From: Halobacteroides halobius DSM 5150 | GTDB lineage: Bacteria; Bacillota; Halanaerobiia; Halobacteroidales; Halobacteroidaceae | NCBI RefSeq assembly: GCF_000328625.1 | Contig: NC_019978.1 | Coordinates: 2,232,001-2,296,000 of the forward strand | DNA: 64,000 nucleotides | Direction of reading: 5' to 3' | Shown: piece by piece, positions 33,134-42,948 of the stretch | Layout of the letters: the number at the start of each line of letters is the position of its first letter | Position numbering within the stretch: the first letter of the stretch is position 1 | Notes under the pieces: generated by a model | The model's database searches: none | The model's input: only the letters and a program-made list of their open reading frames with translations | What the model was told of the DNA's origin: nothing | Program-made: the position numbers and the translations under genes

Positions 33134-33322
33134 CCTATTCTGTGTCTGTATTCTGTGTCTGTATTCTGTGTCTGTGGCAGTAATTTGTAGTCTGTAGTTT
33201 GTAAAAATCAAAACCTCTAACTGCAAAGAAACTCTATACTTTTTACTAATAAAATTTTAATTTTATGATTTTTACAGACCACTAACACAAACACAGACCA
33301 CTAACACACATAACTGACACTA
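33134..33322. repeat. GT/AC-rich fold-back array between IVP copy 1 and pseC
   Basis: Coding strand: GT-rich arm (TTAGTGTCAGTTATGTGTG, GTTAGTGGTCTGTG twice), a 60-base AT-rich spacer, then an AC-rich arm ending in three tandem copies of ACAGACACAGAAT (33136-33176 on the plus strand as ATTCTGTGTCTGT). The arms are partly complementary. Confidence 0.75.
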
Positions 33323-33324
33323 AT

Positions 33325-33754: not shown

Positions 33755-33838
33755 TACTAACACCAGTCACTGACACTGACTACTAACCACCGGCACTGAC
33801 TACTGACACGGACTACTGATAGCTCACGACTCACAGCT
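33755..33838. repeat. GT-rich array at the 3' end of pseB
   Basis: Coding strand: the last pseB codon and stop (GAG CTG TGA) run straight into GTCGTGAGCTATCAGTAG, then several AGTAGTCAGTG-type units up to 33755. Only the GT-rich arm is present here, with no clear AC-rich partner. Confidence 0.65.
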
Positions 33839-41134: not shown

Positions 41135-41309
41135 TTAGGTAAGTTGATATTTTACTACTAACTATCTATAGCTTAGATAAGTTAGTAGCCATTGCTACCC
41201 TAAGTTTTGGGTAGTGGGTACTAGATAATCAATATTAGAGACTACCTACTACTCACTACTCAACTTTTTAGTATTGGGTAATTGGTACTCTCGACTCCTC
41301 TCAATACTG

Positions 41310-41477: not shown

Positions 41478-41708
41478 CTACTCATTACTTATTTTTTTAA
41501 TTAATTCACTCAAACTCCCAACCTTCTGACTTGCTGCCTCTTTATTAGTTGCTTCTATTTCTTGATAGATTTCTTTACGATGAATCTCAATATCTTGAGG
41601 AGCATCAATACCTAACCTAACTTGTCCTCCTCCAGCCTCTACTACTGTAATTTCTATATTATCTCCTACCATGATACTTTCATTTTCTTTACGAGTTAGG
41701 ACTAACAT
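41478..41708 (-). CDS. csrA: Carbon storage regulator CsrA
   Basis: RNA-binding translational regulator, 76 residues. Starts [22 protein letters not shown] with [22 protein letters not shown], the conserved beta-core including the RNA-contacting Arg. The C-terminal extension ([18 protein letters not shown]) is longer than in E. coli CsrA, as is usual in Firmicutes; its last codons AGT AAT GAG TAG coincide with the GT-rich repeat. It pairs functionally with FliW to control flagellin translation, but here a foreign gene separates them. Confidence 0.96.
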
Positions 41709-41721
41709 TTTTTCACCTCAT

Positions 41722-41835
41722 TTAGTATTGGGTAATGGGTAATGGGTATTGGGTAATGGGTGTTGGGCAATGGGTATTGGGTTATCGGCTTTACTCACTA
41801 CACACTACTCACTACACACTACTCACTACACATTA
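41722..41835. repeat. GT/AC fold-back array between IVP copy 2 and csrA
   Basis: Coding strand: GT-rich arm (AGTAATGTGTAGTGAGTAGTG and repeats, 41793-41835), the joint AAAGCCGATAACCC (41779-41792), then an AC-rich arm (CAATACCCATTACCC-type, 41722-41780). Plus-strand joint GGGTTATCGG is shared with the array at 42200-42445. The units are about 6-7 bp, imperfect, in many frames with stops. Confidence 0.8.
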
Positions 41836-42183
41836 CTTGATAGATCTCATCAACCCTGCTAACATCTTACTTATTTGGTTTATCCTTTCTTTAAACTCTA
41901 AATATTTTTCTTCACTTATGTAATCTAAATCTTTGGCTAATAAAATATGATATTTGAGTTCACCTACTGAACCTCTAGCAATACCAACAAATTGTTTATA
42001 CTCTCCTTGAGTCTTTCTATGACTTCCTTCCATCAAATTAGAATTAATAGAAGAACTAGCTCTTCTTATCTGAGACACCAGACCATACTTTTCTTCTTTA
42101 GGAAAAGAATCAGTTGTTTTATACAAATCTATTGTTAATTTATGAGCCTTCTGAAAGACATCTAAATCTTCAATATACTTCAT
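41833..42183 (-). CDS. Four-helix-bundle protein of the 23S rRNA intervening-sequence type (copy 2)
   Basis: 116 residues from the ATG at 42183 (AGGGGTG nine bases upstream); in-frame codons upstream of it are repeat sequence (THNSIPNTHNPIP). Helices YIEDLDVFQKAHKLTIDLYK, SQIRRASSSINSNLMEGSH, GIARGSVGELKYHILLAKDL, RINQISKMLAGLMRS parallel copy 1 closely. It lies between fliW and csrA, which are normally neighbours, with a fold-back array on each side and its stop codon in one of them. Looks like a mobile or duplicating cassette; no transposase is present. Confidence 0.9.
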   Translation of the reverse strand: MKYIEDLDVFQKAHKLTIDLYKTTDSFPKEEKYGLVSQIRRASSSINSNLMEGSHRKTQGEYKQFVGIARGSVGELKYHILLAKDLDYISEEKYLEFKERINQISKMLAGLMRSIK

Positions 42184-42199
42184 ATAACTATACACCCCT

Positions 42200-42445
42200 T
42201 TGATTAATGTTGGGTTATGGGTAATCGGTATTGGGTTATGAGTGTTGGGTATTGAGTTATGGGTTATCGGTTTCACACACTACACATCACACACTACCTA
42301 CTACTCATCACTCATTACTCATCACTCATCACTCATTACTCATTACTCATTACTCGCTACACACCACACACTACTCATTACTCGCTACACATTACACACT
42401 ACACACTACTCACTACCCATTACCCGCTACTTTCTTATTACCCGC
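42200..42445. repeat. Long GT/AC fold-back array between fliW and IVP copy 2
   Basis: Coding strand: about 160 bases of GT-rich units (GTAGCGGGTAAT, AGTAATGAGTGATGAGTAG, GTGTAGTGTGTAATG), joint GAAACCGATAACCC (42261-42274), then about 60 bases of AC-rich units (ATAACTCAATACCCAACACTC). Arms can pair as an imperfect long hairpin. All six frames of it give low-complexity peptides, so plus-strand ORFs here are artefacts. The fliW stop is inside the array. Confidence 0.85.
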
Positions 42446-42883
42446 TACTTTCCTATTATCTCTATCACTAAATAATTTGAATTTGACTGGATAACTTGTA
42501 TCCTCTAAAATAATCTGTCTACCAATCCTCTCTCTCTTATTAATCACTAGTGGTGCTTTTAGATTCATTGTCATCTCTTTTGGATTATCTGGTACTACCA
42601 CAATATTAATCACCAATACATCCTCTTGACCATTAATTTTTAGCTCTCGCTTTACACTCTCTTTTAAATCAAATTCATAAGTTTGACAAAAAGCCCACGG
42701 TTCAGTAACTACAAAAGCTAAATCTGGATTATGTACCGCTTGTAACCAAAAGAAATCAGTCTCTTGATCTTCTATTAGCATAAACTGTTTCTCATCTTTA
42801 AATCCATATAACCCTTGGTGAAAAATAATTATTTCTTCTTCTGAAACTTCTATCTCACCAAATCTAGTTGTTTCTATCCTCAT
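42413..42883 (-). CDS. fliW: Flagellar assembly factor FliW
   Basis: Binds flagellin and CsrA; free FliW sequesters CsrA so flagellin is made when export is active. 156 residues. ETTRFGEIEVSEEEIIIFHQGLYGFKDEKQFMLI, FFWLQAVHNPDLAFVVTEPW and VLVINIVVVPDNP are family motifs. ATG at 42883 with GGAGG eight bases upstream; an earlier in-frame start at 42898 lies before that site. The C-terminus ends RKVAGNKKVAGNG, written by tandem GTAGCGGGTAAT units, so the native tail has been replaced or extended by the array. Confidence 0.93.
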   Translation of the reverse strand: MRIETTRFGEIEVSEEEIIIFHQGLYGFKDEKQFMLIEDQETDFFWLQAVHNPDLAFVVTEPWAFCQTYEFDLKESVKRELKINGQEDVLVINIVVVPDNPKEMTMNLKAPLVINKRERIGRQIILEDTSYPVKFKLFSDRDNRKVAGNKKVAGNG

Positions 42884-42948
42884 GCTATTAACCTCCATGC
42901 TAGGTATTGAGTAGTCAGTGTCTACACATTACATATTTAAATTATCAA

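Follow-up and report, generated by a model that had tools for sequence, protein, structure and literature searches.

An IVP gene framed by heptamer arrays between fliW and csrA

The window, by which we mean the whole 64,000-nucleotide stretch of the Halobacteroides halobius DSM 5150 genome analyzed here, carries an open reading frame of the 23S rRNA intervening-sequence protein (IVP) family in the spacer between fliW and csrA (Table 1), as identified from the list of open reading frames and by Pfam. The 116-residue product scores 136.6 bits against PF05635 (E=4.3e-40; cut-off 33.8; positions 1-105 of 106) and 122.5 against TIGR02436, the four helix bundle protein model (cut-off 24), and therefore belongs to both families, bearing out the preliminary description of a 23S-IVS-type gene that separates fliW from csrA. 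Exactly two PF05635 genes are present in this one-contig genome of 2,649,255 bp, both of them inside the window, and orthologues that are 73-75% identical to the IVP protein between fliW and csrA occupy other flagellar-region sites in other genomes of the family. Comparison of the gene with its paralogue and with orthologues from another genus gave omega values of 0.15-0.20, and values spanned 0.03-0.30 across the IVP pairs for which they could be computed, so that the protein has been maintained and, as judged from these sequence comparisons, is under purifying selection. The only profiles matching the gene are the IVP and bAvd models; a transposase is absent from it, and no nuclease or polymerase domain is recognizable in IVP. 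Elsewhere, IVP-like domains were seen within open frames of ~1,750 amino acids (G322:C1:175017-175259 and G120:C1:47499-47705; G and L numbers are our labels for genomes and loci).

Two arrays with periods of 7, 14 and 21 bp frame the gene, placed by Tandem Repeats Finder at 41725-41837 and 42210-42458, the start of the left array being corrected to ~41724. Both are palindromic, passing from G-strand units through the joint GGGTTATCGG to C-strand units. The joint occurs exactly twice in the window, at 41779 and 42261 and on the + strand in both cases (0 expected from 100 dinucleotide shuffles); its presence in both arrays and in one orientation had been noticed beforehand. The two arrays are direct copies of one another (81% identity over 116 nt at an offset of 482 bp), and their local alignment scores 67, cross-locus pairs reaching at most 42. 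When read as RNA of the - strand the left array is predicted to fold as a hairpin (-32 kcal/mol, z -4.3). The outer arms (41724-41782 and 42373-42431) are 71% complementary over 59 nt, with an own-arm score at this locus of 30 against a null 95% value of 15, and the predicted fold of the whole element reaches -174 kcal/mol (z -4.0), none of 20 shuffles being equally good. Stem-forming terminal inverted repeats around an open reading frame, which are one mark of an rRNA intervening sequence (IVS), are thereby predicted at this cassette too. Between 41000 and 43000 no Rfam family was found above threshold, weak matches to plant miRNAs being low-complexity noise. The second IVP gene is flanked like the first by period-7-type arrays, but these are built of different units. 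At window positions 42419-42458 the C-terminus of fliW is lengthened by two 18-bp units (ATTACCCGCTACTTTCTT) to give KVAGNKKVAGNG, the array being translated as a protein tail.

Table 1. Genes, arrays and putative cassette around the two IVP genes of the window.
Feature	Position	Strand	Details
Array 3' of second IVP gene	33136..33324	.	G-strand then C-strand units (TCTGTAG / ACAGACCACTAAC)
Second IVP gene of the genome	33325..33675	-	73% amino acid identity to the first
Array 5' of second IVP gene	33755..33820	.	Units CTGACTA/CTGACAC
Solo gene-less hairpin between csrA and flagellin	41203..41263	.	Heptamer type as in the window arrays
csrA, neighbor downstream of IVP gene	41478..41708	-	Pfam
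Putative whole cassette	41724..42458	-	Outer arms pair in predicted fold, enclosing the gene
Array 3' of IVP gene	41724..41837	.	+ strand: G-units (TATTGGG TAATGGG), joint GGGTTATCGG 41779-41788, C-units (TACTCAC TACACAC)
IVP gene, four-helix-bundle protein (PF05635 / TIGR02436)	41833..42183	-	Profile match, 116 amino acids
Array 5' of IVP gene	42204..42458	.	+ strand: G-units, joint 42261-42270, long run of C-units to 42423, two 18-bp units
fliW, neighbor upstream of IVP gene	42413..42898	-	Pfam; last codons and stop codon in array

Heptamer arrays accompany IVP genes in many phyla

Period-7 arrays were found beside nearly all of the 22 IVP genes of the order, with a heptamer that differs at most loci (TACTCAC, ATCTCTT, GGAATTA, GTCACTT, GAGGATA, GGGATAA, GTGAATA, GTTGACA). 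We then drew on 80 named loci from many phyla, retrieved with a narrow IVP peptide pattern and hence a sample of one subfamily. A period-7 array of at least 3 copies lies within 600 bp at 50 of these, and array density is 0.93/kb near the gene versus 0.11/kb beyond 1.5 kb. Within 350 bp on any side such arrays accompany 44 of 72 IVP genes versus 49 of 332 control genes (p=5e-15), and they stand on both sides of 21 of the 72 versus 5 of the 332 (p=4e-13), the controls being the flanks of other predicted open reading frames within the same loci, as called heuristically. For periods 5, 6, 9 and 10 the 72 IVP and 332 control genes did not differ, and period 8 showed a weak effect (6/72 versus 7/332, p=0.016). 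An independent sample of 29 loci from the phylum, retrieved with the Pfam model as a check on single-subfamily bias, had period 7 at 19 loci and periods 5, 6, 8, 9 and 10 at 1, 0, 1, 0 and 0. The preliminary description had staked its reading on a statistical link between gene family and arrays, and both samples contain one. About one third of IVP loci have no array at the threshold used. The association extends to plasmids, four cyanobacterial plasmid copies of IVP having arrays (e.g. (GGGAGTA)n in Nostoc edaphicum), and among phages we found three matching records only, all annotated as Avd. We regard the anatomy of the cassette and the association of gene with arrays as practically certain.

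The two arrays of a locus match each other in inverted form far more often than arrays of different loci do. When the 5' flank of a gene was compared with the reverse complement of its own 3' flank, 66 of 96 loci exceeded the cross-locus 95% quantile (~5 expected) and 34 exceeded the 99% quantile (~1 expected; p=2e-39). Base composition is polar as well, with 35% G and 6% C in 5' arrays and 10% G and 34% C in 3' arrays after removal of similar genes. What is constant is therefore the period of 7, the inversion and the polarity relative to the gene, and not the sequence of the unit. Most loci read G-strand array, gene, C-strand array, i.e. they have terminal inverted arrays. In a second form, found in the window and at L026, L032, L036 and L057, a whole hairpin stands on each side. 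The preliminary description had seen in the gene plus one array a unit that was inserted or duplicated in place; whole-hairpin direct copies at these five loci agree with duplication in place, though as a special form, the general unit being a gene between two inverted arrays.

IVP is co-oriented with both neighbors at 80 of 95 loci versus 214 of 413 control genes (simple ORF caller). The upstream gene ends at the edge of the array, its stop codon having a median position of -2 bp at 41 loci and lying in the array or no more than 10 bp before it in 25. Sense orientation is not absolute, since cyanobacterial plasmid copies in Nostoc edaphicum (nrdB-nrdA) and Calothrix are antisense to both neighbors. 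The idea that the 5' unit is selected to hold a stop codon was rejected: 49 of 54 5' arrays have one, yet 44.3 +/- 2.0 are obtained when the bases of each unit are permuted, so that composition explains most of them. A candidate reading in which the heptamer is seeded by the insertion target would fit the coincidence of array edges with upstream stop codons, but the same heptamer occurs in L042 and L043 despite different junctions.

Insertion and transfer of the cassette

In 11 of 12 relatives from the order, fliW and csrA are separated by -4 to 160 bp and there is no IVP gene between them; csrA was not located in the twelfth. None of these junctions has the gene there without arrays, and the part of the preliminary description that envisaged an insertion thus stands: the window cassette is an insertion into fliW-csrA. 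One of the 11 (G009) has at this junction a gene-less hairpin array with units of the GGAATCA type, and this hairpin is 82% identical over 107 nt to the one beside G009's own IVP gene, across fliW. The window's nearest relatives belong to other genera. Neither a target-site duplication nor a nucleotide-exact empty site was definable.

Presence and absence of the cassette can also be followed at two sites in Halomonas and its relatives, where we named the genes by eye from their sequence. In the Halomonas/Vreelandella spacer after an MBL-fold gene, IVP with arrays is found in L051 and L092 and a gene-less hairpin in L049. In the Halomonas rfbB-rfbD spacer, several species have an IVP gene flanked by arrays, L173 and L179 have C-arrays with no gene, and the junctions of L180, L192, L193 and L196 are short and clean. 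Filled and clean alleles differ beyond the cassette itself and show no evident target-site duplication, and other species carry other inserts in the rfbB-rfbD spacer, which makes it a hot spot where inter-strain recombination may also spread alleles. Some Bacteroidetes copies, on the other hand, look vertically inherited at a single site, IVP being apparently kept in place across related species (gmk-nadD in Flavobacterium, read by eye; Algoriphagus).

Two species of one genus (L042 and L043) share a cassette that sits at a different gene junction in each. Similarity starts and ends within the arrays, and because homology stops inside them on both sides, both arrays travel with the gene; in at least this pair of genomes, then, sequence comparison shows that what was transferred was the gene together with its arrays. 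The genes of L034 and L035 are 85% identical and their heptamers different, which implies that arrays turn over faster than genes. We are highly confident of the insertion and mobility of the cassette, and the mechanism by which it moves is what we infer below.

Two further features of the rfbB-rfbD spacer deserve mention. At L169 and L179 the C-strand array is apparently translated as an N-terminal extension of RfbD, the ATG of which overlaps the IVP stop codon (L169) or lies just before the array (L179). The same spacer in other Halomonas loci (L272:1260-1960, L268, L183, L176 and L174) contains a small PF13366 gene (PDDEXK_3, 'GxxExxY') between inverted arrays whose unit is 9-10 bp long (CCACGGA...CACGGA / TCCGTG), with a gene-less version in L187. 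PF13366 has 6 matches in 61 genomes of the genus, five of them in the rfbB-rfbD spacer and the sixth at a contig start and possibly there too, and the element may be a counterpart of the IVP cassette, framed by arrays of a different period.

The same anatomy inside 23S rRNA genes

Duplicate IVP matches in G213, G156 and G269 sit inside 23S rRNA genes, as recognized by motifs and, for L308, by an Rfam LSU match; an identical four-copy match in G435 is not in rRNA by motif. The arms of the three rRNA-borne elements are inverted and repeat with period 7 (shuffling test, p 0.0016 or less), and those of G213 and G156 are predicted to fold as a long stem around the gene. The IVP family thus has the same anatomy inside 23S rRNA genes, a resemblance to rRNA IVSs that is stronger than the preliminary description had claimed. 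In G269 the IVP reading frame within the 23S rRNA is broken by an 80-bp hairpin with a CAGATGA-type unit as in the IVS arms (L318:4850-5170; the insert is also in the second rRNA operon, L319), and this insert is a gene-less hairpin inserted into coding sequence.

The nearest precedent is the 23S IVS of Coxiella burnetii, in which two to three tandem heptamers (GACAGAT) stand just 5' of the ORF and vary among strains, a feature not generalized by the authors; the element has a 28-bp terminal stem, is excised by RNase III, and encodes a protein thought to be unexpressed (PMC4990558). The window cassette shares with rRNA IVSs the protein family and the terminal inverted repeats that would form a long stem. 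It differs in lying in the spacer of an mRNA operon, outside the 23S rRNA gene in which an IVS by definition resides, and in having whole hairpins on both sides, and its RNA processing is putative. By structure, the window cassette and the classical IVSs are one class.

Comparison with published repeats and mobile systems

Heptameric simple repeats have been described as TAACTGA in Beggiatoaceae (PMC4679880) and as GGGAATC in Xanthomonas and GGGGA(C/T)T in Nostoc (PMC4692102), and in the SPADE survey heptamers were the commonest intergenic tandem repeats of prokaryotes, with the explicit statement that a clear clue to their function is lacking (PMC6344855). Like our arrays, these are intergenic tandem 7-mers of lineage-specific sequence, some of them inverted, and the Xanthomonas species studied for GGGAATC encodes the IVP of structure 2GSC (XCC0516). 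A term search of PMC4679880 and PMC4692102 returned no mention of four-helix-bundle or intervening-sequence proteins, and among open-licence papers we found no report that links the IVP family to heptamer arrays, or that describes such arrays as general or as present in operons of protein-coding genes.

The RAYT protein is a Y1 transposase, and its REP tags are conserved. The REPIN/RAYT system resembles the IVP cassette in having a gene between inverted repeats and dispersed gene-less hairpins. IVP differs in having no Y1 HUH transposase domain, and its arms share period and polarity only, the heptamer differing per locus without a conserved REP tag.

Avd, the accessory protein of diversity-generating retroelements (DGRs), is a homologous four-helix bundle (bAvd E=3.6e-9; DivGenRetAVD 46 bits), although IVP falls under both curated cut-offs (37.5 versus 40 for bAvd, 46.4 versus 80 for NF033474). 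Homology between the IVP family and Avd has been reported, and Avd is required for retrohoming (PMC10053308). The solved IVP relatives 2RLD and 2GSC have five chains each. By analogy, these structures and the homology to Avd make a nucleic-acid-handling role for IVP plausible.

A proposed mobile cassette and its alternatives

We propose, with a probability of about 0.62, that an IVS-type mobile cassette, consisting of a single IVP gene with inverted arrays of 7-bp units as its termini, has lodged in the spacer of the fliW-csrA operon. On transcription of the operon the two arms would pair and the cassette would fold out as a long stem, to be processed, probably by RNase III, as in rRNA IVSs. 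Folded out and processed in this way the insertion would be tolerated in the transcript, a component of the model to which we give even odds. IVP, whose solved relatives are pentamers and which is homologous to Avd, may recognize the arm hairpin as RNA or single-stranded DNA and cause both the cassette and gene-less hairpins to be copied by a recruited or host polymerase; direct action of IVP on the arrays is the more tentative component, with chances just short of even. Arrays would turn over by slippage and by template switching between arms, and we propose this as the reason why the heptamer changes from locus to locus and the two arms of each locus nevertheless remain a matching pair. Several observations count against the proposal: neither a target-site duplication nor an exact empty site was definable, IVP has no recognizable nuclease or polymerase domain, arrays are also found without IVP, about one third of IVP loci have no array at the threshold used, orientation is not always sense, some Bacteroidetes copies look vertically inherited, and the Coxiella protein is thought to be unexpressed.

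One alternative, which we consider unlikely, is that the hairpins are moved by other machinery, as MITE-like repeats mobilized by an unrelated transposase or copied in replication, with IVP a passenger between two hairpins in an arrangement like REPIN-RAYT but with the enzyme elsewhere. Hairpins without a gene are indeed common, and some belong to dispersed families that lack IVP and whose loops are nearly identical. In addition, the window, L026 and L032 have the gene between two whole direct-copy hairpins, and the gene-less fliW-csrA hairpin of G009 is 82% identical to the one beside its IVP gene. The flanks at most loci, however, are single inverted arms rather than two whole hairpins, arm polarity relative to IVP is constant across phyla, the bond between gene and arrays also holds inside rRNA genes, and a passenger would not be expected at 44 of 72 loci.

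Still less probable, in our view, is a host gene with regulatory arrays. Here a resident RNA-binding IVP would bind hairpins between operon genes and tune their expression (in this case that of fliW and csrA), the arrays would be its binding sites and the pair would be vertically inherited. Purifying selection on IVP would accord with such a role, as would the location of arrays at operon junctions and the apparently vertical persistence at a single site in Bacteroidetes, among them Flavobacterium and Algoriphagus. Against it, the operons that contain the gene are unrelated to each other, congeners differ in whether a given site contains it, several copies with broken relics exist and some copies are inside 23S rRNA, which together amount to the behavior of a selfish element. 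Finally, coincidence, by which slippage expands heptamer microsatellites wherever a spacer tolerates them and IVP genes happen to be in such spacers, is already disfavored and has very little chance of being right: among the intergenic tandem repeats of prokaryotes none are commoner than heptamers (PMC6344855) and background arrays exist in the genomes scanned, but the flanks of other genes are far poorer (both sides, 5/332 versus 21/72), periods 5, 6, 9 and 10 have no effect, and independent slippage would not give matched inverted heptamers with fixed polarity.

Returning to the mobile cassette, a wider reading, on which we are evenly divided, is that IVP genes and inverted heptamer arrays constitute one mobile-element class found throughout bacteria, with termini set by repeat period and strand polarity and not by sequence, a class that would include the classical rRNA IVSs and gene-less hairpins and would be a source of many prokaryotic heptameric repeats. 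The function of IVP and the origin of rRNA IVSs have been unclear since 1990 (PMC4990558), and the most abundant intergenic tandem repeats of prokaryotes are without a known cause (PMC6344855); a link between them offers a single, testable answer to both problems. It would be unusual for a mobile element to have a terminus that is recognized by a 7-nt period and a strand bias and whose sequence changes from locus to locus. Many phyla, moreover, have IVS-like cassettes in operons of protein genes, the one described here separating two flagellar regulators.

Arrays and hairpins without an IVP gene

Two simpler expectations about the distribution of arrays did not hold up. Arrays are not almost confined to IVP genes in this genome: a TAC-type pattern places 18 of 21 matches there, and a sequence-blind scan finds 3.75 period-7 arrays per 100 kb elsewhere. 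Nor is it supported that arrays need a resident IVP gene, their density being 4.6 per 100 kb in an IVP-free congener of two IVP carriers, although 0.75 per 100 kb in a second genome free of IVP. As heptamer arrays are present without IVP, IVP cannot be claimed as the source of them all. Gene-less hairpins are oriented in sense in 4 cases and in antisense in 2, the rest being symmetric or divergent.

The Halobacteroides genome also contains a dispersed, MITE-like family of ~150-bp hairpins with AATTGAC heptamer arms, near-identical loops and no IVP gene (L197:7540-7720, L197:14540-14720 and L205:3210-3400). At two further places in this genome (403166 and 586881; L003:1495-1520 and L004:1500-1520), G-strand heptamer runs of ~3 units lie at the upstream stop codon in operon spacers, with neither a C-arm nor an IVP gene, and these short runs are possibly early or relic arrays.
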